The notes below the pieces were generated by a model. It made no database searches. It worked only from the letters and a program-made list of their open reading frames with translations, and was not told where the DNA came from. The position numbers were made by a program, and so were the translations under genes. Shown one piece after another: positions 9,101 to 57,740 of a stretch of DNA of 64,000 bases. The stretch is from Persicaria tinctoria (Eukaryota; Streptophyta; Magnoliopsida; Caryophyllales; Polygonaceae): contig JBANSL010000002.1 in assembly GCA_037127255.1 (NCBI GenBank), positions 43,369,392-43,433,391 on the forward strand, written 5' to 3'. The first letter of the stretch is position 1; every line of letters begins with the position of its first letter.

Positions 9101-9135
9101 ACGGCGGGCACCGTGCAAGGGGCGGCGGGCGTCGT
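9101..9135. repeat. Paired GC-rich palindromes, element A 3' LTR
   Basis: ACGGCG-GG-CACCGT (centre 9107.5) and CGGCG-GG-CGTCG (centre 9128.5) have centres 21 bp apart. Each has a GG centre and near-perfect arms. Confidence 0.8.
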
Positions 9136-9694
9136 CTCTGCAGTGTTCGACGTTCCTCAATTGTCTTCAATAGATTCCAATGTCGTGCCTCCTTGCTTCT
9201 CCTTAGCCTCCGTATGCTCCCAAAAAATGCTTCTTAAGCTCTTCCTAAATTCCATCCAAGGTCGGAATGTAATTCTGCAGAATAAACACTAAAAACACAT
9301 ATATTCCAAACTCGAATACTTCACAAGTAATAAACGGAACTAGACTCAAACAATAGCAAAATCACTATCTAAATGCAATAAGAAACAACTATAATGCCTA
9401 TATGAAATATGCCTTACCACTTCACGATTCTTCTTCCTCTTCGATGTTCTTCTCTACACCGCCATTGTCGATCTTTCCTTTGCCTCTTTTATCCTCAAAA
9501 TCAGCCTCTTCTAGACATCTTAAGCCTCCCTTCAAGATCAGATTATAAAACTGCAGAATAAATACAAAATAACATAGATTCCGAACTCGAATACCCAAAT
9601 GGATAATAATGCGAATTCAACATAAAACATGCAAGAAACCTGTCTAAATGCACCTAAAACTGTCTATAATACCTATCTAAAATATGCATTATCA

Positions 9695-10428
9695 ACTCCT
9701 TTTCCCGTATTTATTTTTTGACCCGGCCCTGTCGTTGACAACCTTGTATTTGGATTTATGTTTGTTGCTCGTGTTAGACTTAAATTGCTTTAGGTAGTTT
9801 GAATGTATTCCAATAGGCTTTTGGGGTTTTGTAGATTACTCTTGAGAAAGCTTGATTGATCCAAAATAGGGAGAACAATATATGGTGAGTTGGAGGGAAT
9901 ATCTACCAAAAAGACAAAAGGAAAATATTAGACTCGATATAATATATAAAGATAGAACCTCTAATCCTAGGAAATAAGGAAACTTGTTCTAAAAAAAATT
10001 ATAATCCTAAGATAAATAGAAAATAATCTATCCCTAAAAAAATATAAAATAATCTAATCCTAGAGAAAAATAGAAAACAATCTAATCCTAAAACGAAAAA
10101 TGATCAAAAATAAAAAGATAGAAACTTCCCTTTCCAATTTTACCAAATTTCGGACTCGTTTGTTGGACAGACAGGCGGCGGGCGCCGTGGCTGGGGTGGT
10201 GGGCGCCATGTCCATAGAATGTGGCTCCGTTCTTCCAAATCAATCAAAACTCAATCCCAAAATATGTTTCACTTACCATAACTTCCGAAATCCGGCGATA
10301 CGATTGATCCTACTTTATTGAATTGATAACTAATGCAAAAGATAGAACTACTTAACTAACTACCTTGGGTTTCCTCCCAAGAAGCGCCTTTGTTTCACGT
10401 CTTTAGTTCGACGTGATGCATTGCTTGA
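9695..10428 (-). other. 3' untranslated region of element A with palindrome pair
   Basis: Non-coding DNA lies between the end of the coding remnant (10429) and the 3' LTR. It includes a block near 10367-10395 (TCCTCCCAAGAAGCGCC) that is also found in elements C (39408) and D (50695) just after their coding regions. A palindrome pair sits at 10176-10208 with centres at 10181.5 and 10202.5, 21 bp apart. There is otherwise AT-rich sequence with CTAATCCTA-like repeats (9960-10095). Confidence 0.65.
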
Positions 10429-10672
10429 TCAAGTTATTCCACCAAAATCCCCCACACTTGTCCTTTTCAAAACAAGAGGTGGAACTTTAGGAACTTCTCC
10501 GACATATCCATCAATTGCATCTATCGATTCCTTCTTGAAATGAGTTACTCCGGGAGGTTGTCCTGCAATTGCAAAAACCTCGACATTGTTAGGAATCAAT
10601 TTCTCATGGGGAATAGCAATAGAATCATTTGAATTAGACACATTTTCATGCGACTTAAACAGAAGCATCTAA
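10429..10672 (-). pseudogene. C-terminal coding remnant of element A, left of the CACTA insertion
   Basis: An open minus-strand stretch of about 80 codons (ending around GDFGGIT) continues the polyprotein that is interrupted at the CACTA insertion; the upstream part resumes at 22682. No pol motif is recognisable. It is probably the region after the protease. Confidence 0.5.
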
Positions 10673-10702
10673 CACTACTAGAATTCTGTTATTTAACATC
10701 GG
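10673..10702 (+). repeat. Left terminal inverted repeat of CACTA element
   Basis: It begins CACTACTAGAATTC and reaches TTTAACATCGG. It pairs with 22652-22681 with about three mismatches. Confidence 0.9.
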
Positions 10703-10860
10703 ACAATTAACATCGTCCAGAAAAGCAGGTGATGTTAGCAGGTGATGTTAAATAAATTTTTAACATCGGCTAAAAAAATAATGATGTTGAAAACATAATA
10801 GACATCACACTGATTTTATTGACCGATGTTAAAAAAATTTTTTAGGAAAAAGTTAAACGC
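10697..10860. repeat. Left subterminal repeats of CACTA element
   Basis: At least seven copies in both orientations of a word based on TAACATCGG, GTGATGTTA or GACATCAC. In En/Spm such repeats bind the element's own accessory protein; that role is assumed here from the family. Confidence 0.75.
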
Positions 10861-13800: not shown

Positions 13801-14156
13801 TATGGTATTATGTGGGTTATTTGTGCATGCAATGGATATTATAAGGGTGTTTGTATCCCATCAAATTATCAATAACTTAGTAAGTGATAAAGAGTTTAGG
13901 TTTGTTTCTAAATAATGCTTTACTGCTATTAGAATAAGTAATCTAGTATCTTTTTTCATTGACTCATAACCGACCTTATGTGAATAGCTGAGAAAAAAAT
14001 ACAGTTGGATATATAAATAAGCTGAAATATATCCAAGTTATGAATTATTTACATTACACTTATATCCAAGCTATGATTTATTTAAATTACAGTTCGTGTT
14101 TTTTTAGTAACATAGTTTATATTCTTCTTTTTCTATTTGTTTTATAATTTTTAGCA
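10861..14156. other. CACTA 5' region, no confirmed coding sequence
   Basis: About 3.3 kb precede the transposase ATG. A possible untranslated first exon ends at a consensus donor (CTC then GTAAGT, about 11250), and a possible acceptor (TTTGCAG) lies at about 13343, but neither can be confirmed. ORFs at 10945-11367 and 12868-13215 have no recognisable domain and look like chance. Confidence 0.4.
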
Positions 14157-17100
14157 ATGGATAAATCATGGATTGAAGAAGATAGGTTGAGTGAGAAGTA
14201 TCAATTGGGGTTGGACGCTTTCTTTGCTTATGTTAAAACTAACTTTAATAACGCTAAGAAAGTAAGATGTCCTTGCTCAAAATGTGTGAATTTTAAGAAG
14301 AGGACATTTAAAGTCATGAGAGAACACTGCCATGAATTTGGGTTTAGTTTGGGATACACAAATTGGATTTGGCATGGAGAACCTACTGCTAGTGTTGACA
14401 CAAACAATGATGTCCACAAAGCTCATCACCCTCAACTCGGCTCTGAAACTGTGGAGATGTATGAAGCAGCTTGGAATGAAGGTGATGATTATGATGTCGA
14501 ATCTGCTGACTTCAATCAGTTTGTTGAAGATGCACAAAGACCCCTGTTTGATCGTAGTGATCACACAAAGTTAGATGCACTAGTTAGACTTCACTCTGTT
14601 AAAGCAAAGTTTGGCTTGAGTGACACTTGTTTCAATGAAGTACTAGAGGTTGTATCATCCTTGCTTCCGAATGGAAATGTGTTACCGCAAACTCTGTACG
14701 AGTCAAGAAAAACACTAAACAAGCTAGGTCTTTCATATCAGAAAATACATGCATGTCCCAATGATTGTATACTTTATAGGAATGAGTATGCCGAGTCAAA
14801 CTCTTGCCCTACTTGTGGTCTCTCTCGTTGGAAGATGACGAGAGATCAAACAGAAAGGGAGGGACAACCAGCAAAGGTTTTATGGTATTTTCCCATCATC
14901 CCTCGATTACGCCGTTTGTTTAAATCTGCTGAAACAGCTGAATTGATTACATGGCATGATGAGAATCACAGTCAAGATGGCTACATGAGACATCCAGTTG
15001 ATTCCCCTTCTTGGAAGTTGATTGATTACAAGTGTCCGGAATTTGCAACAGAAGCTAGAAATTTGAGGATGGCCTTGGCAGCGGATGGCATTAATCCACA
15101 TAGTAGTATGAGCAGCAGATATAGTTGTTGGCCTGTAATTTTGGTAACGTATAATCTTCCTCCATGGTTGTGCATGAAAAGGAAGTTTATGATGTTATCT
15201 TTACTAATTTCTGGCCCAAAACAGCTCGGCATCGATATAGATATCTACTTGGCGCCGCTAATTGAGGATCTGCAGACATTGTGGGTAGGGGTCCCTAATG
15301 TGTACGATGCTTATCGAAAGGAACACTTCACCCTCAGAGCTGTACTATTGTGGACCATCAACGATTTTCCTGCATATGGAAACTTATCCGGCTGCTCCAC
15401 AAAAGGGTACAAGGCATGTCCAATCTGCGGTGATAAAACTACCGCAATTTATCTACCACATAGTCGAAAGATGGCTTATGGAGGTCATCGTAAGTATCTT
15501 AATCTTTATCATCTGTATCGTAAGCAAAGAAAGGCCTTTAATAATGATCAAGTGTTGGGAGATGAACCATTGCCCCAATCAGGTGTGGAAGTGTTGAAAT
15601 CGGTTGAAAATATTAATTATGTGTTTGGGAAGAAAAAGAAGAAGAAAAACCCAGAAGTAGAAGCTACTTGCTGGAAGAAGAAGTCAATCTTCTTCAATTT
15701 GGAGTATTGGGCGTGGTTACATGTTCGACATTGTCTCGATGTGATGCACATCGAGAAGAATGTCGCAGAAAGTTTGGTTGGGACGTTGTTAAACATGCCT
15801 TTCAAGACAAAAGATGGTGCTGCTGCCCGCCAAGATATGGTTGATATGGGTTTGAGGCTTGACTTGGGTCCACAAGCCGGAGAGAAGAGGACGTACATAC
15901 CTGCTGCCTCATTTACTTTGTCGAGGGCTGAGAAGGTCAAAATGCTCACTTCTCTATTGTGCATGAAGGTTCCAGATGGGCATTCTTCAAATATCAAAAA
16001 TCTAGTGTCTATGGTTGATTTGAAGTTATATGGATTGAAGTCTCATGATTGCCACATTCTAATGCAACAACTGCTTCCTGTAGCCATTCGCTCGGTCCTT
16101 CCAAAGCATGTAAGGGTTACTGTTATGAGATTATGTTTCTTTTTCAATGCTTTGTGCACTAAGGTGATAGACGTGTCAAAGCTAGACAAGCTGCAGTCTG
16201 ACCTAGTGTTGACCTTATGCAAGGTAGAGAAGATATTCCCTTTATCATTCTTAGATGTAATGCTACATCTTACTGTTCATCTAGTTAGAGAAGTCAGGTT
16301 ATGTGGCCCGGTGTTTTATAGATGGATGTATCCATTTGAACGATTCATGAAGGTTCTAAAGGGGTATGTGCGCAATCGCTTCCATCCGGAGGGCTGCATT
16401 GCTGAGAGCTATCTTGCTGAAGAATCGGCTGAGCTGTGGGGTTTTTTCAGGCAAGATTGTGGGCCAGTTGGTCTTCCTAAGGATGTATGTACCCTATCGG
16501 GCCCAATTTCAGCACCTAAATTGAGGCAGTTGGATGAAGAAGAGCTAAATGCAGCTCACCTTCATGTGTTATCCAACAATGACGAGGTGGATCCATATAT
16601 ACAGTAAGTTTCTTCGTTTCACACACGTCTTCTGTAGAGTTCTGGATATATATTTTCCATTGCTAATAAAAGTGCATTTTATGAAGCACACACAAGCAAC
16701 TTCTGGAGAAATTATACGAAGGAAAAAGAAAGACTAAAAAGTGGCTTCAAGATGAGCATAATCGTACCTTTGCTGATTGGTTTAAGCAAAAGGTACATCA
16801 ATAAATATTTTTCAATGAATTTATATTATTCATAGTATTCCATGATCCTTCAAAGTGTTAATACGTTTTAAGCGCATAATAATGGGTGTTGGGCATGTAG
16901 GTAGAGGCTGAACTGGAGGAAAAGTCCATAGACGTTTCAGAAACAGTGAGATGGTTGGCCGCAAAACCAAGTTTCACCGTTTTCACGTACAATGGGTACC
17001 GATACAATGGTGTTAAGTACTTCACAAAACAACGAGACAATGGTCGTGTTGTCCAAAATAGCGGCGTTTCTTTAGTAGCTAACACAATGCAAGTGGCACG

Positions 17101-17566
17101 TGCTAAAGATAAAAACCCGGTGACTAGCGAGATGACATTCTATGGGGTTATTCAACAGATCTGGGAGCTAGATTATTGTGACTTCAAAACGCCTTTGTTT
17201 ATGTGTGAATGGGTAGAGAGCGGAAGAGGAATTAAACACGATGAGTTTGGTTTTACGTTGGTCAACCTAAATAGGCGGGGTCATACAAGGGATCAGTTTG
17301 CTTCTGTTGCCCATGTGAAACAAGTGTTTTATGTGGATGATCCCCTGGATCCAGATTGGTCGGTTGTGCTTAGGACCCCCAACAAAGACTATCGTGATTC
17401 CTTATATGAAGATGAGATAGGAGATAGTTTTATGGATCATCAACCATTTTCTATGGAGATACCTTTGCCTTGTGATGAAGAAGATAACGAGGGGGATGTG
17501 ACGTATAGAAGAGATAATGTCGAGGGAACTTGGATCGAGCAAAATGTTGGTCCAACAGAAGATTAG
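14157..17566 (+). CDS. TNP2-type CACTA transposase, three exons, about 1,072 aa
   Basis: The first ORF begins at ATG 14157. Inferred exons are 14157-16603, 16687-16792 and 16901-17566; each joint has GT...AG ends and keeps the frame, giving 3,219 bases. Domains in order: an N-terminal transposase-associated zinc domain (about residues 1-75, CPCSKC, then H and C residues and WIWHGE), the Transposase_21/TNP2 core (from about residue 180 to 560, with HACPNDCILYRNEY, CPTCGLSRW, CPICGD and HCLDVMHIEKNV), a DUF4218-like part (about 640-760, LHLTVHLVREV, YPFERFMKVLKGYVRNR) and a DUF4216-like C-terminal domain (LDPDWSVVLRTPNKDYRD). The protein excises and inserts CACTA elements by binding the termini. 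No stop or frameshift was seen, so it may be functional. It is transcribed in the same direction as the next gene. Confidence 0.9.
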
Positions 17567-25803: not shown

Positions 25804-25850
<47 letters not shown>

Positions 25851-42172: not shown

Positions 42173-44443
42173 GGAGTTCAGAGAGCAGGGACTGTATCCA
42201 CAAGAATTCACAAGTTACAATAGCCAAACTTCGGTATTCAGCTTCCGTTGATGAACGAGCGACAGTGTCTTGCTTCTTGGAACTCCAAGAAATTAAATTA
42301 TCGCCAAGGAAGATGCAATATGCACCAGTGGATTGGCGATCTAAAGGGTCTCCTGCCCAGTCAGAATCGGGAAAGGCCTGAAGACGAAGTTTGTTGTGTG
42401 CAGAGATATGGAAGCGAAGAGAGGATGTAGCACGGAGGTAACGGAGTATCCGTTTGACTGCTTGCCAGTGGTGTACACATGGATGATGCATTGATTGGAA
42501 AACTTTGTTAACCGTAATTGAAATGTCTGGCCGAGTGAATTGGAGGTATTGTAGACTACCCACGGTGCTTCGATATAGTGAAGGTTCAGAGAATAGGGGA
42601 CTCTCAGCAGGAGAGCCATCGGTGTGGTTACCAAGCTAGCTTTCTACATATTGGTCTTCACTAAAAGATCGTGAATATACCTGGATTGAGACAAATTGAA
42701 GCCAGATGCATCCCTAGAGACTTCAATTCCCAGAAAAAAATAAAGATCACCCAAATTCTTCACTGGAAATTGTTTGGCAAGTGAATCAATAAACAGAGTG
42801 GATTGATGCTCATCAGATGAAATTACGAGAAGATCGTCTACGTACACTAGAACATAAACTAAGTAGCCTGCTTGGTGATAGATAAAAAGAGATGAATCAG
42901 ATCGAGAAGGGGAAAAAACAAGAGTGATGAGAGCCTCACTGAGTTTGGCAAACCAAGCCCGAGGGGCCTGCTTTAGGCCATACAGGGATTTTCGAAGCTC
43001 GCAAATGTAATTAAGATAAAGGGAATGAATGGAACCTTTTGGTTGTTGGATGTACACATCCTCCGTCAAGTCACCGTGAAGCAAGGCTTTTTTAATATTG
43101 AGTTGTCAAACCGTCCACCTGTGTGTTGCCGCCAAAGAGAGGAGCAATCGGATGGTTGCGGGTTTTGCCACTGAACTAAACGTCTCAGAGAAATCAATGC
43201 CTTGAATTTGATTGAATCCTTGAGCCACTAAATGAGCTTTTCGACGTTCAATTTCCCTTGTAGCAAGCCTTTTGGTTTTGAAAACCCATTTGGTTCCTAG
43301 AACATTGATGGAAGGGGAGGGAGGGACAAGAGTCCATGTGTTTGTGGCAAGGAGGGTAGTGAATTTAGCATTCATTGCTTGTTGCCAGCCTACGTATTTG
43401 GATGCCTCCGTATAAGAAGTGGGTTCATCGGGTATGATCAGGGAGAATTGGGCGTTGGAGCATTGAGATGACCAACGAATGGTTCCATCTTATCAAATGA
43501 GAGGTTTGGTAATGTTGGCTTTGGATCTGGTTATCATGGGATGGCAATTTTGGCTTGAAGGTGCCGACGGGGAGGGAGGTATTGGAGACAGGCCGAGGGG
43601 TACAATCTGGAACAAAGTTCCTGGAAGATGGGAAAGGGATAAGTGGTGCTGATTGTTTGGGTGAATTGTGGGGTATTGTGTTTGGGCTGACAGTGGGGAA
43701 TGGGGAATTGGGATCAGGTCCAATATGAGGGAATTGTAGCGGGGAAAAGATTGGGCCTCTAGATCAGATTGAGTTGTAGATCCACTTGTATTAGAGATTG
43801 GTTAAGTATCCTCGTGAAACAGTACATCCCGAGATACATAATAGCGAGAATTGATCCAATCAAAACAAATGTAACCTCGATGTTGGGAACTATACCCGAG
43901 AAAAACCGTTAGGGTTGAGCGAAAAGAGAGCTTATGTGAATTGTAAGGCTGAAGGTTGGGAAAAGCAAGACAACCAAAGACTCGTAAGAACTCATAGTCG
44001 GGGAGTGTGTGAAACAAGAGCTCAAAGGGTGAGCGATTTTGTAGAACCGGGGTGGGAAGACGATTGAGAAGATAAACCGATGTTTCAAAAGCAAAGTCCC
44101 AATAGGATAGTAGGAGAGATGCATGCTTTAAGAGAGTGAGTCCCATGTCTACAATGCAATGATGTCGAGACTCAACGGTGCCATTTTGAGGGTGAGAATA
44201 CGGACATGTAAGTCTATGGGCAATGCCATTGTGTTGGAAAAATGCATGAAGGGGTTTCAACTCGGTTCCATTGTCCGTTAGGACACTTTTAATGGTTGTA
44301 GAGAATAAATTTGTAACTAATTTGGCAAAATTGATGAAAGTGGATGAAACAATAGACTTTGTAGCAATAGAAAAAATCCAAATAAATTTCGAATAATCAT
44401 CCACAATAGATAAATAAAAACAACAACTAACAAGAGGAAAACA
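42173..44443 (-). pseudogene. Copia integrase core, reverse transcriptase and RNase H
   Basis: Read leftward: integrase core (44420-43800) with SIVDDYSKFIW, DNG in SVLTDNGTE and Glu in NGTVESRHH, then the GKP-like C-terminal region (VFLGYSSQHRGYICFD). The reverse transcriptase N terminus (43375-43106) has TNTWTLVPPS and KWVFKTKR. A stop separates it from the RT core (43084-42644) with LYGLKQAPRAWF and the catalytic YVDDLLV. RNase H (42563-42173) has DSDWAGDPLDRQSTGAY and SSTEAEYRSLA. Several stops and frameshifts are present, so it is not functional. Confidence 0.85.
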
Positions 44444-45786
44444 TGTCGTTGTTTTTGCCAAAGAATACTCAAACTCACAACTAGTATAGTGTTTTAGCAA
44501 GAGATCGATCCACATGGAAATCTATTCAATTCAAGTATCAATTCTAATCGCTAATAGAGAATATGGGGGGTTTTTGGTGTGAAAAAGATCCGCCTTTTAT
44601 CAAAGCGGAAGCAAGCAAACAAAGTGAATTGGTTTAAGAATGCAATGGAGAGAAATAGGCTCACCTACAATTTATCACTTCGATTGATGAATTCGATCCT
44701 TGTTTCAGCCTCTAGTTCTTGTCTTTTCCTATCAATGTCCTTGTCCAGATCTTAGGTAAATTACTAGTCCTACGAGTCCTAGGAACCCTTATCTCTAAAT
44801 AACCCTAACATGGTTAAGATTCAACCTAGAGATAGCATTAAGATTATGAATTAACCAATGTACACATAATATCAAGCTACGAGTCGATATTCAACATGTA
44901 TTCAACTTCCTACACATCCAATTAGTCCTACGAGTCCTAAAGGGATATGATTGCCACTTGGGTTAAGGTTCGCTACGAGGAATCTACAAAACCCTAGGAA
45001 TTGAATGAATCTACTCTAACTAGTCGGCCAGGCCAGAGAGAATAAAACACATTCAAGCAATTAAGCACAAAGAAGTCAAAACATTGGAATAGGAATAAGA
45101 ACTAGATTAAGAAACTCACAATTCAACAATCAAAGATCCAAAATGTAGGAGAAACCTCGAGAGTTTAGTTGCTCATGCTCAACGGCGCTCTCAACAATGG
45201 AATAAAGTGCATAAGATAAGTGGTAGAATAAACTAGAAAAGTCTTATAAAAGCCTCTAAGAGTCGGCCAATAAAATAAACTAAAACCCTAATTAAATTCC
45301 AATTCTGAATTGGCGTTTCTGCGAAGGCCGCGGGGCGGCCGGCGATCAGCGAAATCCGTCGTCAAAGCTCCGAGCCGCGGGGCGGCTTTTACTGTTCACA
45401 GAGATTTTTGTGTTTGGAATTTGGTCTCGATGTCAACACAAAAGTTCTAGATCTCGAAGAGATCTTTCCAACGCATGGTGAAAGTGCGAAACACGTTCAG
45501 CATGTCTGGCGACAACTTTTGCTTACTTGTTTTTCATTTAGGCTCTCGAAATTCGACTCCGCTCCCGTGCTCTTCACTTTTCTTCCTCAACTTGAATCTT
45601 CCTTCATCCAAGAGTCTCCTCATTCCTCGTCGGATCCACCTTTACCTGAAATTAACCATAAAATTGCATAGATTCCGACTCTTCCAACATCACCGGTAAA
45701 CATGTAATTGTAACTAAAATATGCACTATTCACAACTAAACTATGCTAAATGTAATCTATAATGCAATACTAAACATGCTCTATCA
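44444..45786 (-). repeat. Solo LTR F inside the copia integrase gene
   Basis: It begins TGTCGTTG and ends CTCTATCA. The copia protein continues from KG at about 45790 to CFPLVSCCFYLSIVDDY at 44440, so the LTR splits one gene. An AACA flank on both sides (44440-44443 and 45786-45789) is a possible partial target duplication. It contains two copies of GCCGC-GGG-GCGGC (centres 45333 and 45380). Its style is that of the Athila-like LTRs nearby (GTTTTAGCAAGAGATCGATCC near the primer edge). No internal region is left. Confidence 0.7.
45327..45386. repeat. Palindrome pair in solo LTR F
   Basis: GCCGC-GGG-GCGGC twice, centres 47 bp apart. This is a wider spacing than in the other families. Confidence 0.8.
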
Positions 45787-47340
45787 ACAACCCTTATCGG
45801 GAAGATAATAAGAGGGACCCCAAATATCAACAAAAAGAAGTTCTAGAATACGAGTGGATCTACTAGGTGAAGCCGTATGTGGTAGTGCATGGGCCTTGGC
45901 CCATGAAAAACTTTGACAGGGCTTTATTGGGCCTGATGAAAAGGGTCGGTTGATGGAAGAAAGAATTGAGTGGGTTAGGGTTTGTGAGGGATGCCCTAAT
46001 CTATAGTGCAAATGAGCAAAAGATGAAGATGATGTGGTGGAGACATGAGCTTGCGACGGTGACGAAGGTGAGACGGTGATCGGCAACTGATAAAGGCCAC
46101 CCTCAACAGTTCCTTGAAGAAGAACCTGGCGTGTCTGCAAATCCTTAACAAATAAACAGTGAGCATGAAACTCAAGAAACACTTTGTTATCAAGACAAAA
46201 TTGATAGACAGAGAGAAGATTTTTTGAAATTTGAGGAGTATGAAGGAGGTGAGAGAGAAAGAAGATACGGTTTGGTGTTGAGAATTGGGCTGAACCATGA
46301 TTGATAATTGGAATAGAGGATCCATTACCAAGCAGTACTTGTTCAGTTCCACTATACAGAAGCGAGTCTAATCGCAAGTTCGAGATATCCATTGTGTAGT
46401 GACGATTTGAAGCAGTATCGGGGTACCAAGTATTGGTGTAGGTTGCCTGGAAGCTGGATGGTGGTGGTGATTGGAAGGCCTGATCGAATCGATGCCAACG
46501 GAAAGGGGATGTGTGCCTCCTCTTTGAGCAAAGCTGAAAGATGGGTATCGTATCTTGGAGACCATTGAAAGTTGAAAGGCGATTCTGGTGATTCTGATTT
46601 GGAGTGAAGGGAGTGCTATGATCATTCTCTCTTCCCGGCCGCGACCTCCACGTCCACCATCGTGACCTCCGCGATAGAAGCCTCAACCTCGAGAGTTGTA
46701 TGTATAGTTGACTTCTGGTGTTTGGGTTTGTGGTGGTGGTTTTGGAAGATTTGGGGATGGGGGAGTGGGGAGAAGCCCTTGTGATGGAGTGGCAAGTCGG
46801 GACTCGTGATTGAGGAGATGGGAAAGAACCAATATGGGTTCGGGCAAATTTGGTTGGGTAGAAAGAGAGGTGACAAGGGACTCATAGTCCGCTCCCAGGA
46901 CATCAAGTAAGTAAGTAATAAACTCAATATCAGAAACAACATGTCCAGCCCCAGCAAGTGTGTTTACCAGTCCTCTTGCCCGATTATAGGAGTCGGTGAC
47001 GCTCCCTTACCCTTCTCGAAGCGAGGCAAACTGTAGTCGGGCTTGGACGATTTGAACTGTTGAACGCGCAACTTGAAGTTCATGAAGTAGCGACCATATC
47101 TCTGCAGACGTCTCGCAGTCGATGACTCCATTCGGGTTGAGGGAAGGAGGTCGAGGATGACTTCCATCCACAAAACGAAGAAGCCCCTGAGAACCGAGGT
47201 AGGGGCAGACTTGAGCTTTCGATGTTGGGAAGTTGTTTTGTTTCAATTTGATGGGAATAAAACTGGAAATGCAGGAAGGGATGAAGCCCCAGCCAACAAT
47301 GGCGTTGTTTATAGGGAATTGGATAAAGAAGGAATAAAAG
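45787..47340 (-). pseudogene. Copia gag, protease and integrase zinc region
   Basis: The gag N terminus (about 47330-47010, KLKQNNFPTSKAQVCPYLGSQGLL) matches the copia-type N-terminal pattern. Gag continues with stops and frameshifts to about 46620, with a Pro/His-rich tail. The protease and GAG-pre-integrase region lies at 46686-45784, with SNRHYTMDISNL-type sequence and the zinc-binding HLHYRLGHPS. It ends in LELLFVDIWGPS, the start of the integrase core, before the LTR insertion. Confidence 0.8.
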
Positions 47341-47754: not shown

Positions 47755-49077
47755 TGGTGGGGTGAAATGTCGTGTGTTTCACGTCGCCAAAGATATTGAT
47801 TTCCAAACTAATAAACCAACTAGTAAACTAGTATAGCGGATAAGTGAGGGGTCGAACCCACAGAAAGAATACCTTTCTGTCTACTCAAATTGCTAACAAA
47901 GTAATGAAATTGAATGTAATTGAGATGATCAAAGTAACTAAATAAAGTAAAAGCAGGAATGATGATTGATTGATAACAATATGGATGAAGTAGTTTCACC
48001 TACAAATTCTCAACAATTGTTGATTTATTGATCATTGACCCTCTTTCTAGTTATTCTAATTATTTTGATTAATTCGACTTTGGTTTATATGGATTGACAC
48101 TCTTAGTAGAGATAATAATCTCTTACATCTATCGGCAAAATCCTATCCTTGTAGGATTTAACATACAAATAACACAAATTCCCAAAGTTCTTGGCAGAAT
48201 GGTCACCCAAACTGCCATTACCCTACATAATCAAGATCATCCTCGCGGAATCACTTGCTTGTGATTGCTACAAAAGGCACAATTACTCTCGCGAAACAAT
48301 TGAAACCCTAGCACGATGCAATTCTATCAAGGATGCCAATCAAAGTAGAATCAACAACACAAAATCATTGCAAAGGTAACGAATCAATCTTTGGAATAAC
48401 ATAGAATTCAAGTCTCACAAGTCAACCAACCATGTCTTTCAATTGTAGGAAAAACTAAAGAGATTTATTGAATCATACCAAAGTATAAAACCTCCATTCT
48501 TCTCTCCATAGTTGTCTAATGAATACTAAAGAGAATAGTCTATTTAAGCTCGAACAAAACCGGCCCTTCAAAACCCTAGGAAAAGATAGATAAAACTTCC
48601 CATAAAAATAAACTCGGGCCACGTATCGCAAATCCGGATCTGAGAGGGCGGCGGGCGCCGTGGAAAGGGTGGCCGGCGCCATCCGTACAGCTTGGCAGCA
48701 TCGACAAACTGAACTTGTAATGCACTTTCTGGAACCATCGTTTGTCTGATTGACACATATAAATATGCCTTGGAAAGCTCTTTCCAAGCACTACGATTCT
48801 CATGAAAAACTCATAAGCTAGTTCCAATTTCTGAGAACCTCAAATATAGGATTTCTCCACGTTCTCCATTTCCGCTCTTGTTCCTTAGCTCTTCTTTTGT
48901 CCATTCACTCAAAGTTTTCTCCACCTTTCGAGTCCGAATCATAAGATCTACAAACAAGCACTAAAAACCGTAGATTCCAAACTTCAAATACCAAATGATC
49001 AAGAATATAAATAAGTTTATTAAACATGCAATATGAATACTTAATGCACCTATGCCTATCTAAAATATGCATTCTCG
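47755..49077 (-). repeat. 3' LTR of element D
   Basis: About 1,323 bp, matching 54015-55315 with modest divergence. It ends GCATTCTCG where the other LTR has GCATTATCA. The palindrome pair is at 48649-48681. Confidence 0.9.
48649..48681. repeat. Paired GC-rich palindromes, element D 3' LTR
   Basis: CGGCG-GG-CGCCG (centre 48654.5) and TGGCC-GG-CGCCA (centre 48675.5), 21 bp apart. Confidence 0.8.
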
Positions 49078-50770
49078 AACTCCCTCACACTTAAGCTTCG
49101 CTAGTCCTCGAGCGAATAATGAAAAAGAAACATATACCTAGGAGTTCATCATTCATGCAATAGCCTTCACCAAAAGCAACATCAATTGAAATGAACAAAT
49201 GATCAAGCGAATAAACATCATAGCATGTATTTAGCGATCAAAGCATAGAAGTAAAAATCATCCAACCTCACAAGGAATATGTGTTTCACTCATGCTCTCA
49301 TCTGTTTAGGCAATTAAGTTCAACTCTTAACTCAATCCAAAATGCACTAAGCTCGCAGACATTGACAACAATATAATCAAATCTCCACCGAAATGTCATC
49401 ACTTTTGAAAAACAATAGAAATAGACAATTTGGCTCTAGAATTTCACTCTTTTTTTTTCTTTTCATAGCTTACTTTTTCTCCTAGGTAAATTTTATCCTC
49501 CCTAGGTCTAAGCTTTCTTATTATTTTTTCTTTTTTTCTTTTTATTTTTTTTCTTTTCTTGCTATGGTTTCTTTCAACTTTGGTATTTTTCAACACCTCA
49601 ACTTACTTGAATAAAGTCCACTTGAACATCTTTTGACTCAAGTTGCAAACATGGGTGTCATGAGTAAACCTGGTTACTCAATGATTAAGCTTCTTTTCTT
49701 AGTGGGTAGCTTTTGACACTGTTTTGCGCGAATCATACCCATGGGTGTCATGCGTAGATCCGATTACTAAGTGTCTCAACCATTGCCACTTTATTTCACA
49801 CTAAACTCTCAATAAGCAACTAAAGCCAAATGTAGAACATAAAAGCATAAATTCCGCAAGCAGCAAACATGTGAGTCGGCTTTGACAATAGCTAATGAAG
49901 TCAATATCAAGAGGTAGAAACATATGGAGAGTAAATCACACATCAAAGCAAGAGGAATTATAAATGATTCCAACAAGGCTAAAAACAATCTCACAAGGGT
50001 CATGTTTTGTAGGATTTCAATCATACTCAAGCTTAATCATACATGCTCAATTACATTACCAAATCATGCTTCATAAGAAAAACATTTTAAGGCGATAAGG
50101 CTAAACACTTCAAACTTATTGTAGGATTGACAAGTTCCTACCATAAGAAATTGCAGAGTTTCGCTAACTAAGGTGGGTGTTTGGATAACAACATATATGC
50201 AATGCATGAAATTTATAGATTTTTGACATTTTTCAACTTTTTTTTCTTTTCTTTTTCTAATGCAATAAAATAGCGGAAAAATACACATGAAACTGAATTT
50301 AAACGTGACCTAACGCACTATATCACCTAACTCACTATACCCTCCCCAACACTTAAATCTTTCATTTTCCTCAATGAAAATCAAATAAAGACAACAAATT
50401 TTAAGATAAAATCAACTGAGGGAAAAGGAAACCTACTTGATCGTGGCGGTGGTGGCGACAATCGTCAGACAAAACAAGCTTCGGATCACTGAGGGTGGCG
50501 GCGGGCGCCGTGGGTTAGGAAGTAGGTGTCGCTTCTACAGAACCATGAATCCGAGATACTTTCCTGTATAGGTTAGTTCACGACTCCTACAAAGACACAT
50601 ATCTATATGGGACTCCATCATTTTGTTGAATTTGAAAGAATAAAGACCTAACTAGAATTTGAAAAACATGAAAAGTAGATAACTTGCCTTGGGTTGCCTC
50701 CCAAGAAGCGCCTTTGTTTTATGTCTTTGGCTCGACACAATAAGTTTCTCGGTCTCCTAAGTTGGGTCCT
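49078..50770 (-). other. 3' untranslated region of element D
   Basis: About 1.7 kb without a coding signal. At the LTR edge the minus strand reads GTGTGAGGGAG, the polypurine tract. Two matching segments, ATGGGTGTCATG(A/C)GTA at about 49650 and 49740, are direct repeats. The conserved block TGCCTCCCAAGAAGCGCC is at about 50695, and a palindrome pair is at 50499-50531. Confidence 0.65.
50499..50531. repeat. Palindrome pair in 3' region of element D
   Basis: CGGCG-GG-CGCCG (centre 50504.5) and a decayed AGTAG-GT-GTCGC (centre 50526.5), 22 bp apart. Confidence 0.65.
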
Positions 50771-52430
50771 CTAGGCGCATCTCTTCCAAGACTTGCCTAG
50801 AAACACTCTCATGGCATTCCCATAAGCATCCCAACAGATCTCTTCCAACTCCTGAAGTTGAAGCTTCCTCAATTCTCCTGCTGCAGATGCGTCCATGTTG
50901 GCCTGTTTGACTGCCCAATTTGCTTTGTGCTCGAGCTCAACTAGTAAATGACCATGCTTTCCATAATCCAAGAGAAATGGAGACATCCTTATAGTTGTCT
51001 TGTAAGCAGTACGGTAAGCCCACAATGCATCTTCCAGTCTAAGATTCCAATCCTTCCGATTCGGTGCAACAGTCTTCTCTAGAATCCTCATAACTCACTT
51101 CCATGTTGGACAATTCTGCCTGTTCGTTGGTTTGAGGATGATAGACGGTTGAGACTTTCTGAGTCACATTGTACTTCCTTAAAAGAGCGCTAACGTTCTT
51201 GTTGCAAAAATGAGTTCCCCTGTCACTGAAAACAACTCTGGGCATCCCAAATCTAGCAAATAAACTCTTCAAGAAACTAGCAACTGTGCGAGCATCATCA
51301 GTCCTTGTCACCTTTGCCTCAACCCACTTAGACAGATAATACTCTACAAGCAAGATGTAGACATTTCCAAATGAACTAGGAAAGGGTCCTATGAAATAGG
51401 ATAAATTATACCTGCTTGAAGGAGTTTTAAGACTTTCTTTTTTACGACCTCCATCATCGGGGGATTCAGCCGTCGTTGAGGTTGTCTTGTCGGCTTCGAA
51501 CCGTCCTCCATGAGTATGCGATGCATACACAACGTCGAACTGATTCCTTTGATATCAGCAATGGTCCATCCCAAGGCAGTGTGATGTTCTCTAAGGACAT
51601 CCACTAACCTTTGTTCCTAGTCAAAACTAAGCTTGTTAGAAATAATCACAGGAATTGTGTCACCCTCTCCCAAAAATGCATACTTCAATTGATCAGGGAG
51701 GGGTTTCAATTCAACTTCAGGTGCCTGAATGAAAGCCGAAAGAAGTTTCTCACAAGAAGGATTCAATGGTTCAGTTTTATAGCAAGGGGATAAATTCCCT
51801 GAATTTGCATCCATAGCAACAGACAATTCATGCAGGTTGTTAGGAAAAGCATAATCATGAGACAAATCCCCCAAAAGGGAATCCATCACAACCTGCAATT
51901 GATCAGAACGATTAATACTCATTATATCCTTAGTGAAAATATCAACCACACCAACCAAATTCAGAGAATATGCAGCAGATTTCCCATCAGGGATCAAATA
52001 TTTAGCCTTTTTTCCATCAACTTCCACAGTTTAAGACCCAGCAAACCAGTCAATTTTTGCTTTAGCAGTTCCCAAGAAAGGTCTACCTAGTATGATGGGT
52101 GTCTCAGGTATACCAAGGCCCGTATCAATCACATAAAAATCAACATGGAAAATCAAATCATCAACCATAATCAACACATCTTCAACTACCCCCTAGATAG
52201 GGTGGAGTTGAGAGCGATCAACAAGATGTACAATAACCATAATTTCATTCAGACGCCCCAGTCCCAACTCATCATATAACTTGTACGATATCAAATTAAT
52301 AGATGCACCAAGATCAACCATGGCAGTGTCGATTTAACTTGACCAATCGTACAAGGAAGAGTAAACATACCTGGGTCTCCAAGCTTTTCAGGCAATCGCT
52401 TTTGAAAAACCAATCACAAATTTTCTTCTT
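50771..52430 (-). pseudogene. Element D protease, RT N terminus and integrase, with internal deletion
   Basis: Protease at about 52430-52060, broken by frame changes, with active site MVDLGAS and ILGRPFLGTAK. It is followed by a post-protease region (52027-51617) and the RT N terminus (51604-51389, MEVVKKKVLKLLQAGIIYPIS). At about 51405 the RT stops and integrase begins (YFIGPFPSSFGN), so RT palm, RNase H and the integrase zinc domain are missing. The integrase core has SDRGTHF and the Glu of NEQAELSN, but the first catalytic Asp (normally in VDYVSKW) appears as Tyr. The integrase C-terminal part (51091-50771, [12 protein letters not shown]) is in another frame. Not functional. Confidence 0.8.
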
Positions 52431-52431
52431 G

Positions 52432-53874
52432 TTACTTACCTTCTTTTTCTTTCTCCCATTGTGTTCTTTTGGTTGTGCAAACTTCTCGAAGGAATTTTGC
52501 ATAACGAGGAATGTATTCAACTAGATTAAGGAGAGGAATATTTACCTGGCGTTTGGTGAACGTGTCGAATAAATCTTTATCATTTTTCCACTTACAGTCC
52601 AGATTCAAGGCATGAGGAAGGGGTGGTACATATCTTGAAACCTCAGAAGACGACTCCTCCAATGATTTCCTCGTGAATTCTAAATCGTCAAAAACCGGTT
52701 CCGTCACTGCAGTGGGTGGTGGGCGTCGTGGTGAGGGGTGGTGGGTGCTGTCTTTACAGTGTGGTGTCGTCTCGTTATCTTCTTCTTTTCCCACATCAAT
52801 CATCTCCTTAGGCCTCTCTTCTAAACTTTTATTGGAAAAATTCAAATCATTACCTCCAAGAACCATAGTCGTAGAGTCTTCTCCGGACAAATCCTTTCTC
52901 CAATTTCTCAACTTGAGTTCTTGTAACTCTCGAGCTATTTGGTTTATTATCTTCCTTTGATCTTTCATCATGTCCATCAGGCTTCTTAGAATGTCATCTC
53001 TATGCGAATTTTCTTGAGAAGACTCTTGAGGTGACTCAGAGATAGAGCTCCCTATAGCATTGACTTCTTCAATTCCATCATTTCTATCACTGAGTGGTGA
53101 TTGCAACTGTGATATCTGAGTAGCCATGTTCTTTACAATCTCAGTCGACTTAATAACTTCTTCCTTGCAGCCCCTTCCAAAGTTATCCAAACTGTGAATT
53201 TCCTCGGTTCCTTGAGATTTTTTGTATTGTTGAGAAGCACTAGCTAACCCATCAAATATTTGCATAGCATCTTCAGGTATCTTGTCTAGAATATTCCCTC
53301 CACTAGTAGCGTTGATGAGGTTGCGTTCATGATCAAGTAGTCCTTCATAAAGATAGAGAATCAAATCCTCCTCTAGTATACCATGTTGAGGACAACTTGC
53401 CTTGAGTTTCCTAAATCTCACAATGTAGTCATACAGACTCTCCTTAGAGGATTGCTCTATGCTTGACAATCTCTTGTTCAATTTGTCCAAACGCGTAACA
53501 GGGAAGTATTTTTGTAGAAAACCCTTCTTCAGGCCTAACCATGTAGTGATGCTTCCTACCGGCAAGTAGTGAAGCCAATCGCTTGTTGTGTCTTTGAGGG
53601 TGAACGGAAACAGTCTCATCATAAGTTGATCATTTGTAAATCCTTGAGGTCTGATTCTATCACATACACTGATAAACTCCATAAGATGCTTATTGGGTTC
53701 ATCTCCAGACAATCCACGGAAGATTGGAAAAATTGAATGCCAATTAGATTTGTATCCAAATTTGGAGCCCTCAGGGAGTTCAGGAAGTTTGATAGTAAGA
53801 CTTTGCGAATTTAAATCAGGTTCCTTTAACTCTCTCAATGTCCTCTTGAGAGAGTGATTAACTATTTCAGACAT
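52432..53874 (-). CDS. Element D gag, 480 aa, open
   Basis: ATG at 53872-53874. Features in order: an Athila-type N-terminal region (residues about 30-75, LPEGSKFGYKSNWHSIFPIFRGL), the retrotransposon gag core (about 75-215, MEFISVCDRIRPQGF ... LKKGFLQKYFP ... LYLYEGLLDHERNLINATSGG), and a helical, Gln-rich segment (220-330). A linker near residues 375-395 encodes the palindrome pair as THHPSPRRPPPTAV. The end is the beginning of the protease region (IPRYAKFLREV). No stop occurs in 480 codons, unlike the broken pol genes. The capsid protein could still be made and might be used in trans. No zinc knuckle was seen. Confidence 0.75.
   Translation of the reverse strand: MSEIVNHSLKRTLRELKEPDLNSQSLTIKLPELPEGSKFGYKSNWHSIFPIFRGLSGDEPNKHLMEFISVCDRIRPQGFTNDQLMMRLFPFTLKDTTSDWLHYLPVGSITTWLGLKKGFLQKYFPVTRLDKLNKRLSSIEQSSKESLYDYIVRFRKLKASCPQHGILEEDLILYLYEGLLDHERNLINATSGGNILDKIPEDAMQIFDGLASASQQYKKSQGTEEIHSLDNFGRGCKEEVIKSTEIVKNMATQISQLQSPLSDRNDGIEEVNAIGSSISESPQESSQENSHRDDILRSLMDMMKDQRKIINQIARELQELKLRNWRKDLSGEDSTTMVLGGNDLNFSNKSLEERPKEMIDVGKEEDNETTPHCKDSTHHPSPRRPPPTAVTEPVFDDLEFTRKSLEESSSEVSRYVPPLPHALNLDCKWKNDKDLFDTFTKRQVNIPLLNLVEYIPRYAKFLREVCTTKRTQWEKEKEGK
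52717..52750. repeat. Palindrome pair in gag-protease linker of element D
   Basis: TGGTG-GG-CGTCG (centre 52722.5) and TGGTG-GG-TGCTG (centre 52744.5), 22 bp apart; arms are decayed. Confidence 0.6.
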
Positions 53875-53992
53875 CCCTGCCTAGCCTATCAACAACTTCA
53901 ACAAAGATTGATTAGTAACCAAAGTGCAATCCACCGAAGTGAATCACACTATAGATAGCAATAAAAGTAACCAAAGAAAATAAAGTAATTCT

Positions 53993-54014: not shown

Positions 54015-55315
54015 TGGTGGGGTGAAATGTCGTGTGTTTCACGTCGCCAAAGATAATGATTCCTAAACTAATAAACCAACTAGTAAACTAGTATAGCGGA
54101 TAAGTAAGGGGTTGAACCCACAGAGAGAATACCTTTCCTATGTGCTCAAATTGCTATCAAAGTAATGAAATTAAAGGTAATTGAGATGATCAAAGTAACC
54201 AAATAAAGTAAAAGTAGGAATGGTGGTCGATTGATAACAATAGGGATGAAGTAGCTTCACTTACAAATTCTCAACAATGGTTGGTTTATTGATCCTTGGC
54301 CCCTTTCTAGTTATTCTAATTATTTCGATTAATCTAACTTTGGTTTATATGGATTGACACTCTTCGTAGAGATGATAATCTCTTATATCCATAGGCAAAA
54401 CCCTAACACTGCAGGATTTAACATACAAATAGCACAAATTCCCAAAGTTCTAGGCAGAATGGTCGCCCAAACTGTCATTACCCTACACAATCAAGATCAT
54501 CCTCGCGGAATCACTTGCATGTGGTTGCTACAAAAGGCACAATTACTCTCTCGAAACAATTGAAACCCTAGCGCGATGCAATTCTATCAAGGATGCAAAT
54601 CAAAGTAGAATCAACAACACAAAATCAGCGTAAAGGTAATGAATCAATCATTGGAATAACATAGAATTTAGGTCTCACAAGTCAACCAACCATGTCTTTG
54701 AATTGTAGGTGTAACTAAAGAGATTTAGTGAATCATACCAAAGTAGAAAACCTCCATTCTTTTCTCCATAGTTGGCTCAAAACCGGCCCTTAAAAACCCT
54801 AGGAAAAGATAGATAAAAGTTCCCATAAAAATAAACTCGGGCCGCATATCGCAAATCCGGATCTGAGAGGACGGCGGGCGCCGTGGAAAGAGCGGCGGGC
54901 GTCGTCCATACAGCTTGACAACATCGATAGACTGAACTTGTAACAGACTTTCTGGGGTCACTGTTCGTTCGATTGACGAATATGAATATGCGTTGGAAAT
55001 CTCTTTCCAAGCAATACGATTCTCATGAATAACTAAGAAGCTACTTTCAACTTCTCAGAACCTCAAAGATAGGATTTCTCCACGTTCTCCATTTCCGCTC
55101 TTGTTCCTTAGCTCTTCTTTTGTCCATTCGCTCTAAGTTTTCTCCTCATTTCAAGTCCGAATCATAAGACCTATAAAATAAGCACTAAAAACCGTAGATT
55201 CCGAAATTCGAATAACAAATGATCAAGAATACGAATAAGCTTATTAAACATGCAATATGAATACTTAATACACCTAAGACCCACCTATAATGTCTATCTA
55301 AAATATGCATTATCA
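54015..55315 (-). repeat. 5' LTR of element D
   Basis: About 1,301 bp. It starts TGGTGGGG and ends GCATTATCA. The palindrome pair is at 54871-54905. Confidence 0.9.
54871..54905. repeat. Paired GC-rich palindromes, element D 5' LTR
   Basis: ACGGCG-GG-CGCCGT (perfect six-base arms, centre 54877.5) and CGGCG-GG-CGTCG (centre 54898.5), 21 bp apart. Confidence 0.85.
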
Positions 55316-55320
55316 ATGAA

Positions 55321-55861
55321 TCGGCGTAGTGTTTTAGGTTTAACATAAAATTCGCATAATATAAAGGTTATATGCATTACATGGTTTAATCGCATTATAA
55401 AACATATTTATCTATGCATTAAGGTATGTTAGTTCATCGTCTAAATTACGTAATGAACTTCTTAGTCACCAAAGTTGTCTGGTTGAAAGGAAATTTAGAC
55501 TTTGATTTATGTTTCTCAATTGTTCATGATTAAAGGATGCTAAATGAAATAAAAGGTTGATTGGACAATTGATTTTATTGACTATAATTCTTGGAGATCA
55601 CCCAAAGGTGGATCATTGAATATAGTTGATAATATTAAAGGGTTAATTTTCCACTACTATGATGGGTAGTATGTATATCCAAAGATAACATACTTATTTG
55701 TCTAAAGTGTGTGGTGATTGTCTATTAAAGTTTATATATTTTAGCATCGATGATTTTATGTGTGTTTGAGTATTGCTCAAATGTTGCTTGAATACATGTT
55801 TAAAGTTTATTTTCTGAATCTGTATTAAAGTTTCAAAGCACTAATAGGTAAGCGTGTATAA
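55321..55861. other. AT-rich DNA without recognised feature
   Basis: No coding or repeat signal is visible between element D and the copia gag fragment. Confidence 0.5.
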
Positions 55862-56483
55862 ATGTTTGTAGCTTCATCCAATCTTTTTGCATCTACAAAC
55901 TCTTTCGTGAAGTTCAATGGGCTCAACTATGATGATTGGTCCGAACAGATCCGATTCACATTGGGTACCATGGGCCTGGACCTTGCAATCATTACAAAAG
56001 TACCACCCGCTGCCATTATAGAGGCTAGGTTTGACGCAGAAAAGTCCTTTTATGAGTCGTAAGAGCATTATGAGGATGAAGGTGGTAGAAAATCTTAAGC
56101 CACTTCTTCCTAAGACAGGGAGTGCAAGGGAATTCTTATTTGTAATGAAAGAGTATTCAAAGTCGGATTTGGCTGACAAGTCAATTGTAGGAAGCCTTAT
56201 GTCTGAGCTGACTACGAAGAGATTTGACTGGTCTCAGCCTATCTATTATCATGTGATGCATATGTCCAATTTGGCAGCAAAGTTGACAGCCATGGGGATG
56301 AACGTAAATGATACATTTCTTGTCCAGTTTTTCATCAACTCCCTATCTCACGAGTTTGATCAGTTCCAGGTGAATTACAACACCATTAAGCAAAAATGGA
56401 ATATTAAAGAGTTAACGACCATGCTCGTACAAGAGGAAAGGAGATTAAAGCAAAATATGATAGAACAAAAAAAAAGAGATTAA
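55862..56483 (+). pseudogene. Copia-type gag fragment (UBN2/DUF4219-like)
   Basis: Two overlapping frames make one gag: the first (55862-56062) has FVKFNGLNYDDWSEQIRFTLG, the usual N-terminal pattern, and the second (56031-56483) has a core with LMSELTTKRFD, HVMHMSNLAAKL, FINSLSHEFDQFQVNYN and WNIKELTTMLVQEE. One frameshift near 56040 joins them. No zinc knuckle, pol genes or LTRs are nearby, so it is an isolated fragment. Confidence 0.75.
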
Positions 56484-57269
56484 TAGAGCTAAGATTATTC
56501 ATTTTATGCATAATGAGAATGAATTGGATTTATGTTAGTTGAAAGAAATATTTGTTGGGTGTTGTTGATGCATATGTGTGCATAAGTGGGAGATGATGAT
56601 GAGATTTGATGATTATGAGTATGAGATGATGATGAGATTTGATGATTATGAGTTTGAGGTTATGAGTGATGAGTTTATTAATATATTTTGAGAGTTGAGA
56701 TTATGAAGGATTTTTAGGCTTTATTCATATATTATTGAGATGTTGTGTTATTGAGAGCTTGATGTATTGTTGAGTTGGTTTGTGTTATATATGTTGGGAT
56801 TTTTTGGATCTTATTTTCCCGGAATTAATAGCACCACATAACCAAATACAATTCATTGCCCTTATGTTCCTTACCAAGCCCCATTACAACCCCGCCGAAT
56901 GGAATCTGGTATGAAGGTTTCGATTGAACAAAAGTCCTACTAATGTTCTTATTTTTGCTTTGATGTATCCGGTGGATATTTGGTGATATAAATGTCAATA
57001 TTTGATTTGATGCTTGTATATGGAATTGAGGTGAGTGTATGCTTAAAGCCTAAACACATGAGAGTGAGAGATATACACATTATCCTGGGTGAGGTTGGAT
57101 TTTGGAGCATGCAAGCAACTTGATCCCATATATACATGTTATGAGGTTTATATGCATTGTATATATTTGCACTTTTATTGATGTTTCTTTTTATGAGTAA
57201 AATTGTGAAAGAATCTCTTGTGAGATGTATATATTATGTCTTTATTTTATGGTTGCTTGAGGACAAGCA
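56484..57269. other. AT-rich DNA with short GATGATGAGATT repeats
   Basis: From about 56590 to 56680 a unit of roughly 45 bp containing GATGATGAGATTTGATGATTATGAG is repeated about twice. Nothing else is recognisable. Confidence 0.5.
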
Positions 57270-57740
57270 AGAGTTAAGTGTGGGGGGATATAATGCATAT
57301 TTCATATAGGCATTATAGGCATGTCTTATTGTATTTAGATAGGAGTTTTGCATGTGTTTTAGTCTAGTTTCATATCTTGCTTGTGAAGTATTTGAGTTCG
57401 AAATCTACGCCTTTTTAGTGTTTATTATGTAATTTTACATTTCGGCCTTAGATGGGATCTTGGAAGAGCTTAGGAGACAGGTTTTAGAGTATATGAAGGA
57501 TGGGTAAGAGGATACAAAGGAACAAGGAAGCACAACAACGAAGAGAAGAAGAAAGTCGTTCACTGCATAGGACGGCGCTCACCGTTTCTCAGGCGACGCC
57601 CGCCACTACCCCGTGTTCAGCGAATTGGATTTGGATTCTAAGATCTTATTTTCTATTATATTAATATTATATTTTCTAGGGTTTTGCACATCCTATATAT
57701 TTAGGGTTTTATTATTCTATTTCAGTCGTGTGTGTTGAGC
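57270..57740 (+). repeat. LTR piece G with polypurine tract and palindrome pair
   Basis: GAGTTAAGTGTGGGGGGAT (to about 57289) is the typical polypurine context of this lineage. It is followed by ATAATGCATATTTCATATAGGCATTATAGG, which matches the LTR start of element A in plus orientation. The palindrome pair (57573-57605) and a TATA-like CCTATATATTTAGG (about 57693) follow, then the match ends. It is a partial 3' LTR. Confidence 0.65.
57573..57605. repeat. Palindrome pair in LTR piece G
   Basis: ACGGCG-CT-CACCGT (centre 57579.5) and CGACG-CC-CGCCA (centre 57600.5), 21 bp apart. Confidence 0.7.

Follow-up and report, generated by a model that had tools for sequence, protein, structure and literature searches.

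Paired palindromes about 20 bp apart in LTR retrotransposons of Persicaria tinctoria, possible tandem sites for homodimeric DNA-binding proteins upstream of LTR promoters

The genome of Persicaria tinctoria comprises 1.68 Gb in 221 contigs. A 64-kb stretch of contig JBANSL010000002.1, here called the window, revealed several long terminal repeat (LTR) retrotransposons that carry short palindromes in pairs about 20 bp apart. Direct scans of the window resulted in three unrelated palindromic cores, namely CGGCGGGCGCCG for family A, TCGANNTCGA for family B, and TCGCTGGCAGCGA for family D. The D core took the form CGCTGNCAGCG for an exact genome-wide count. Our claims concern TCGANNTCGA, CGCTGNCAGCG, and CGGCGGGCGCCG out of the many palindrome families in the sample described below. 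In the four element types examined, the sites were located in the unique 3' (U3) region of the LTR, 95–273 bp upstream of a TATA-like word; such words were picked by eye or pattern, and those of elements A and E are weak and were chosen by eye after reading of the sequence.

Elements A and E are Ty3/gypsy elements on the minus strand, with a primer-binding-site (PBS)-like TGGCGCCGTTG(C/T)CGGGGA adjoining the 5' LTR, which resembles a primer site for tRNA-Asp. The Ty3/gypsy gag-pol, a trait of the Athila label used in a first-pass annotation of the window, was present according to Pfam matches. The features of A, E, and an LTR fragment, G, are as follows (palindromes without strand, spacings from centre to centre in bp):

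8052–9473, minus strand: 3' LTR of element A, matching its 5' LTR
9102–9134: family A pair in U3 of the 3' LTR, centres 9107.5/9128.5, 95 bp upstream of TATA-like TTATTTAGG at 9013
10176–10208: internal family A pair about 0.7 kb before the 3' LTR, spacing 21
23474–23507: family A pair inside a gag C-terminal-like stretch, spacing 22 by motif scan
24776–24051, minus strand: gag similarity of element A (to the gag of E)
25004–26385, minus strand: 5' LTR of element A, 88% to 8052–9473, PBS-like TGGCGCCGTTGCCGGGGA directly after
26003–26035: family A pair in U3 of the 5' LTR, centres 26008.5/26029.5, 95 bp upstream of TATA-like TTATTTAGG at 25914
47755–49076, minus strand: 3' LTR of element E, matching its 5' LTR
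48649–48681: A-type pair in U3 of the E 3' LTR, centres 48654.5/48675.5, 107 bp upstream of TATA-like TTAAATAG at 48547
50499–50510: single A-type palindrome in the linker between the E integrase and the 3' LTR, a partner claimed at 50526 not being recognisable
51042–51554, minus strand: integrase of element E (PF00665, rve)
52435–53880, minus strand: gag open reading frame (ORF) of element E (PF03732)
54015–55314, minus strand: 5' LTR of element E, 87% to 47755–49076, followed by PBS-like TGGCGCCGTTGTCGGGGA
54872–54904: A-type pair in U3 of the E 5' LTR, centres 54877.5/54898.5
57573–57605: A-type pair in LTR fragment G, centres 57578.5/57599.5, two mismatches each

The E linker contained no ORF of at least 130 aa. 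Four ORFs of 141–185 aa were found in the internal stretches of A and D, and the two of them that were scanned had no Pfam match. Genes of a CACTA-type transposon are located between the LTRs of element A at 14151–17563 (tnp2 transposase PF02992, DUF4218, DUF4216).

Element B revealed the following organization:

27618–27964: TCGANNTCGA cluster, eight copies with at most two mismatches, pairs 20 apart and one triple
28822–28885: TCGANNTCGA-type copies, pair 28859.5/28880.5
30627–30811: TCGANNTCGA-type copies just before the protease-like ORF, two triples, spacing 21
30936–31916, plus strand: protease-like ORF with the next array inside (PF13975 and PF13650, weak, below curated cut-offs)
31684–31966: TCGANNTCGA array following the protease-like part, with pairs 31690/31709, 31781/31801, and 31874/31894 besides one unpaired copy
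32721–33503, plus strand: reverse transcriptase/RNase H (PF00078, RVT_1; PF17919)
33755–33960: TCGANNTCGA array behind the RNase H domain, 33760/33780, 33840/33861, 33934/33954
34495–34783: inverted copy of the 33.75–33.96 kb array plus pair 34500/34520
36647–36927: TCGANNTCGA pairs 36652/36672, 36745/36765 (inverted copy of 31.7–31.9 kb), 36901/36921
37643–37674: TCGANNTCGA pair, 21 apart

A 2.3-kb piece of element B, from the protease end to RNase H, is duplicated in inverted orientation (31704–34015 and 34525–36842, 93% identity), so many B arrays of the window are duplicates. For this family, the first-pass annotation gave the right spacing with centres about 4 bp short of the true ones and missed most copies: 36 exact TCGANNTCGA cores were counted at 27.6–37.7 kb and one at 60.1 kb. 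B-type arrays occur in U3, close to the end of gag, and after the protease-like part, and in the window also behind RNase H. A search of viral_contigs with the B reverse transcriptase revealed no relative. Rfam gave one match on the window, snoR71 (29679–29785, minus strand, score 42.5 against a threshold of 40), which is not at a pair and overlaps a gag-like stretch of element B (29445–29963); its function is doubtful.

Family D, assigned to Ty3/gypsy by similarity to E only, has its nearest palindrome 115 bp upstream of TATAAATAG at 41182. Its sites are:

39113–39216: internal pairs 39119/39140 (second copy with three mismatches) and 39189/39210
41291–41743: U3 array with pairs 41297/41316, 41517/41538, 41590/41610 and single palindromes at 41661 and 41737

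Between the D LTR and the internal pairs lies an ORF of 185 aa (39473–40030, minus strand) with no Pfam match, and a separate Ty1/copia element (42647–46881, minus strand; RVT_2, integrase, gag_pre-integrs) stands beside the LTR. Another Ty1/copia element, in the sampled locus L006, is young (LTRs 99.8% alike); its LTR carries ACGGCGCCGT and ACGACGTCGT at a spacing of 21 bp and TATATATAG about 180 bp beyond this pair, and it is plausibly a further family with a pair.

The first-pass annotation had listed 16 pairs with individual spacings, which were checked by a tolerant dyad scorer and by a motif scan allowing up to three mismatches. The scorer reproduced 12 of the 16 spacings exactly; for 39119/39140, 57579/57600, and 23479/23501 it gave 19, 17.5, and 20.5, and the claimed partner was found by motif scan only, while 50504/50526 has no recognisable second copy. 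Among the 32 dyads of these pairs, all six arm positions matched in 9, five in 16, and four in 7. At 3,000 random places, the scorer found six in 66, five in 552, and four in 1,594, so single dyads scoring four or five are unremarkable alone.

For genome-wide counts, two cores with a gap of 0–30 bp (centre spacing 10–40) were taken as a pair, a gap of 8–12 corresponding to a spacing of 18–22, and the identical pattern reversed served as control; counts of repeats obtained in this way are possibly lower bounds. Core TCGANNTCGA formed 242,462 pairs, 231,065 of them (95.3%) at 18–22, compared to 1,220 pairs for its reversed control with 186 at 18–22 (15.2%), close to the 16.1% that an even spread predicts. 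Exact CGCTGNCAGCG resulted in 3,988 pairs against none in the control. Its first 50 pairs, which were not deduplicated and include several copies of one element, showed spacings of 21 (26 pairs), 19 (12), and 20 (4), giving 42 of 50 at 19–21, and the remaining eight were 36, 37, or 41 bp wide, seven of these with a degenerate middle copy seen by eye. In the window and the 20 sampled loci, CGCTGNCAGCG with two mismatches was no better separated (6/15 vs 4/9 in the control, the latter all in L011), so that we base the D family on the genome-wide exact count. The family A core had 8 of 11 adjacent distances at 18–22 in the same set (control 1 of 4), some of them between homologous copies, and support for CGGCGGGCGCCG comes from the window and one other locus. 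Thus, the paired palindromes about 20 bp apart are real and, judged by the genome-wide counts for two cores, larger in extent than the first-pass annotation had claimed, and the spacing is indeed kept among unrelated cores.

The local sample consisted of 20 evenly placed 10-kb stretches, with palindromes defined by arms of at least 5, a centre of 0–3, and removal of simple sequence. One stretch (L018:1–10000) is a satellite with self-matches in 78-bp steps and many palindrome pairs 21 bp apart; it was dropped. The remaining 19 revealed 46 palindrome pairs at 19–22 bp, compared to 6.5 for local shuffles and 14 for a mirror-repeat control; the adjacent lower and higher bins contained 9 and 7, and further raised bins were 7–10 (38) and 91–94 (31). 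After masking of TCGANNTCGA and removal of the arrays in L008 and L023, the 19–22 bin held 13 and its two neighbours 7 and 6, with 14 in the 43–46 bin. The spacing effect therefore belongs to a few strong families and not to palindromes generally, and a flat distribution, which would have spoken against the first-pass proposal, was not found for the B and D cores, the remaining signal being weak once strong families are removed. The two arrays (L008:3038–4800, L023:9053–9364) consist of head-to-tail 19-bp and 21-bp units, each of them palindromic (TAAATGTCAACATTTA; CATTTGCACAAATG). A separate 10-bp spacing signal (35 vs 2.9) was set aside, 19 of the 35 (L018 dropped) having a third palindrome at 20, so that the pair is near-symmetric about its midpoint. 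Longer-range helical phasing was likewise not retained: distances between TCGANNTCGA cores of 30–300 bp gave a period of 10.25–10.5 bp (n=296, nR2 about 54; lesser peak 9.25), and 93-bp unit arrays make these distances non-independent. Apart from that, a piece of the window is present in two copies with 80% identity (1–1238 and 3978–5222), the second mostly within a reverse transcriptase ORF (PF00078).

Positional composition of 76 B pairs revealed the site BTNSTCGAY/RTCGASNAV, a dyad of about 18 bp with T/A conserved near its outer edges and degenerate positions between. The spacing was 20 in 32 of these pairs, 19 in 23, 21 in 19, and 18 in 2. As neighbouring sites of about 18 bp nearly abut, packing alone could set the spacing, and the 'two helical turns' proposed by the first-pass annotation are indistinguishable from abutting sites, 19, 20, and 21 all being used. 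The central step of 161 B cores was pyrimidine-purine (YR) in 97 and purine-pyrimidine (RY) in 5; the flanks were both C or G in 141, and 62 of these were non-complementary. Covariation at four symmetric position pairs within TCGANNTCGA palindromes was not significant (n=112; p 0.94, 0.10, 0.17, and 0.10, one side shuffled), and degenerate partners with two mismatches had their symmetry broken in 12 of 12 cases. This favours half-sites that are read independently by a protein rather than a base-paired stem, an independence that is supported but not proven. Of the two explanations offered by the first-pass annotation, a dimeric protein or RNA hairpins, the DNA-binding dimer is hence the favoured one, and hairpins of single palindromes fit poorly.

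The arrays turn over while the pairs remain. In seven B-type LTR copies, the last core lies 223–273 bp upstream of the TATA-like word, one copy having a further TATA-like match at 180. A comparison of four related B-type families gave alignments of 81–85% for the U3 ends and 70–85% for the TATA-proximal stretch; the array region in between was unalignable in five of six family comparisons, with pairs kept in each. One B-type element (L024:2757–10000 and L025:1–1645) has LTR parts 96.6–98.6% alike, and its ORFs for gag and the protease-like part are long and open; between the LTR parts, nothing matched the reverse transcriptases of the window. It is apparently non-autonomous, with gag and protease retained. 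Here and in L015 (L024:7453–7919, L015:8110–8496), palindrome pairs occur in 93-bp (31-codon) units after the protease-like part, within an open frame in L024, and a splice-donor-like AAGGTRAGC follows the unit arrays in both.

Taken together, we give slightly better than even credence to the reading that homodimeric proteins bind the pairs as tandem DNA sites upstream of LTR promoters, the sequence being specific to each family. Each palindrome would represent two abutting half-sites bound by one homodimer on double-stranded DNA, and two sites packed side by side would let two dimers bind adjacently, probably cooperatively. Since the position in U3 upstream of a TATA-like word recurs, the likeliest role would be that of an upstream activating (enhancer) site for LTR transcription, and the copies in internal linkers might act as further enhancers or loading sites. 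Binder and site may diverge together, which would keep the architecture and leave the sequence private to each family. Several observations weigh against this. The arrays also occur within protein-coding linkers of B-type elements, a location not expected from a promoter role alone, and the E 5' LTR has no TATA-like word near its pair. No binder was recognised among the scanned element ORFs (some ORFs were not scanned), which resulted in gag, protease, reverse transcriptase/RNase H, and integrase models or no match; the putative binder may come from the host, may be the gag or integrase protein, or may be encoded by an intact partner copy. Furthermore, three of the four within-palindrome tests lean to complementarity, short of significance, centres are complementary between the palindromes of a pair more often than expected, as an RNA stem would also give, and spacer flanks are slightly more similar (0.463) than the background (0.393 ± 0.019), so that some pairs may have arisen by short duplication.

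Hairpins or cruciforms of single palindromes were rejected as the principal explanation on the grounds of the missing significant covariation, a rejection that is not absolute in view of the three leaning tests. A different RNA model, in which the two palindromes are the arms of one hairpin (stem of 10–12 bp, loop of about 7–9 nt) used for packaging or recognised by the small-RNA machinery of the host, as proposed in maize Sireviruses, appears unlikely to us, though it is the strongest of the rivals. It would account for the centre complementarity between palindromes, seen in 38 of 99 pairs vs 13.7 ± 3.3 when permuted, with subfamily relatedness uncontrolled, and present both in YR-YR pairs (17/41 vs 10.4, p 0.017) and in the remaining ones (21/58 vs 13.1, p 0.003); in addition, small RNAs are drawn to the palindrome regions of maize Sireviruses (PMC10760457, PMC5311732). 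Yet the centres are non-complementary in the other 61 pairs, inner flanks are complementary at about the expected level (54/99 vs 48, p 0.14), and a stem explains neither YR centres nor palindrome centres of 0–2 nt; the 12 broken two-mismatch partners also speak against it, though compensated changes are rare by chance anyway. Both centres are non-self-complementary in 67 of the 99 pairs, and the arrangement of these is inverted in 27, direct in 16, and neither in 24. A pyrimidine-pyrimidine left centre together with a purine-purine right centre occurred in 24 pairs and the reverse in 3. Such symmetry suits a dimer of dimers with its axis between the sites but also a hairpin of both palindromes, and may in part reflect subfamily history. 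As 17 of the 27 inverted pairs represent one combination, TC..GA, the inverted excess was dropped as a general property of the pairs, and we accordingly lowered our confidence in protein-bound tandem sites a little and raised that in plain duplication by as much.

According to this last explanation, which we regard as quite improbable even after that adjustment, the pairs have no function and are tandem duplications of 19–21 bp or arrays spread through element amplification. Tandem Repeats Finder does report some pairs as 20-bp repeats (27614–27652, 94% match), neighbouring 8-mers are slightly more alike than background, direct centres exceed inverted ones by 16 to 10 among non-self-complementary pairs once TC..GA is set aside, and most genome copies are presumably element copies. 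Against it, 95% of pairs stay at 18–22, pairs are retained in places where alignment of the surrounding U3 is lost, the TC..GA combination is inverted and not direct, unrelated cores share the spacing, and control palindromes are flat. We grant a similarly small chance to anti-silencing of the VANC kind, in which a protein encoded by the element would bind motifs across the whole element and remove DNA methylation rather than drive transcription. The motifs in LTRs, linkers, and coding linkers, beyond the promoter, would fit this, and family-specific motifs are the VANC pattern (PMC5735166); the VANC motifs quoted there are non-palindromic, however, and the scanned ORFs revealed neither a VANC-like gene nor any other additional one, not every ORF having been scanned and the copies being degraded. 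Finally, target sites for integration of other elements, or sites for positioning of centromeres or chromatin, seem very improbable. Insertions of plant LTR elements weakly prefer palindromes, with Athila and Sire among four significant families, but the preference is for a short palindrome at the insertion site, amounts to less than one base over shuffled sequence, and predicts no pairs 20 bp apart (PMC6911290).

The precedent for the palindromes is the palindromic LTR motif of Sireviruses, which are Ty1/copia elements: repeated motifs that are palindromic, family-specific, and multi-copy lie in the LTR upstream of the TATA box, with extra linker copies after pol (PMC2829016, Bousios et al. 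2010). Likewise, the motifs described here are family-specific, palindromic, and high in copy number, and are grouped in the LTR ahead of a TATA-like word, with the reservation made above for A and E. The carriers, in contrast, are Ty3/gypsy elements (E with gag PF03732 and rve, A with a gag like that of E, B with RVT_1 and RT_RNaseH), the Sirevirus motif being absent from the other copia elements compared in that paper. Moreover, 12 of 13 Sirevirus motifs have a CGG-CCG core (PMC2829016), which is lacking in the B core TCGANNTCGA and the D core CGCTGNCAGCG, while the A core CGGCGGGCGCCG ends in CGG and CCG. As these two features failed, we consider the present elements to work like the Sirevirus system and not to be members of it. 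Section 9 of the Sirevirus account gives neither pair spacing nor half-site logic, and Sirevirus linker copies accompany an ENV gene (PMC2829016); A, D, and E have linker copies as well, and no ENV was recognised among their scanned ORFs. The LTRs of maize Sireviruses also contain fast-evolving, palindrome-rich regulatory regions, read there as hairpins attracting small RNAs (PMC10760457, PMC5311732), a likeness in the palindrome-rich LTRs that is coupled with a different reading and with carriers other than Ty3/gypsy.

VANC targets in VANDAL transposons are short, family-specific, multi-copy motifs with fast regional turnover (PMC5735166, Hosaka et al. 2017); unlike the elements studied here, VANDALs are DNA transposons with a known binder, and their motifs measure 8–9 bp, are non-palindromic, and have no pair spacing named in the part cited. 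Retand, a Ty3/gypsy family, harbors antisense TRP28 ORFs, a possible DNA-binding ORF, and family-specific repeats after pol (PMC11963269); no such ORF was recognised among the scanned ORFs of our elements, and the Retand repeats described there are tandem arrays of three or more. At the level of titles and abstract openings, the papers listed from the open PMC library revealed no description of such motifs in Ty3/gypsy elements, and PMC3414828 holds nothing on them. The novelty claimed by the first-pass annotation has to be narrowed, family-specific palindromic motifs upstream of TATA being known in Sireviruses (PMC2829016), though we found none described for Athila-like elements: new are the Ty3/gypsy carriers, the tight spacing, the degenerate dyad logic, and the scale.

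More tentatively, and with considerable doubt, plant LTR retrotransposons of both superfamilies could share a convergent operator grammar of two adjacent dyads with independently read half-sites, bound by fast-diverging dimeric proteins and written in each family's own sequence. If so, a single code would be written about 231,000 times in this genome and would rank among its most abundant protein-binding addresses. Should the pairs be operators, retrotransposon families would own private, evolving binding codes that outlast the surrounding sequence, and it would become testable what drives LTR promoters other than those of stress-induced families, what prevents cross-regulation between related ones, and which protein recognises a site that occurs hundreds of thousands of times. 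A core together with a spacing of 19–21 bp would provide a simple marker for such codes in other plant genomes.

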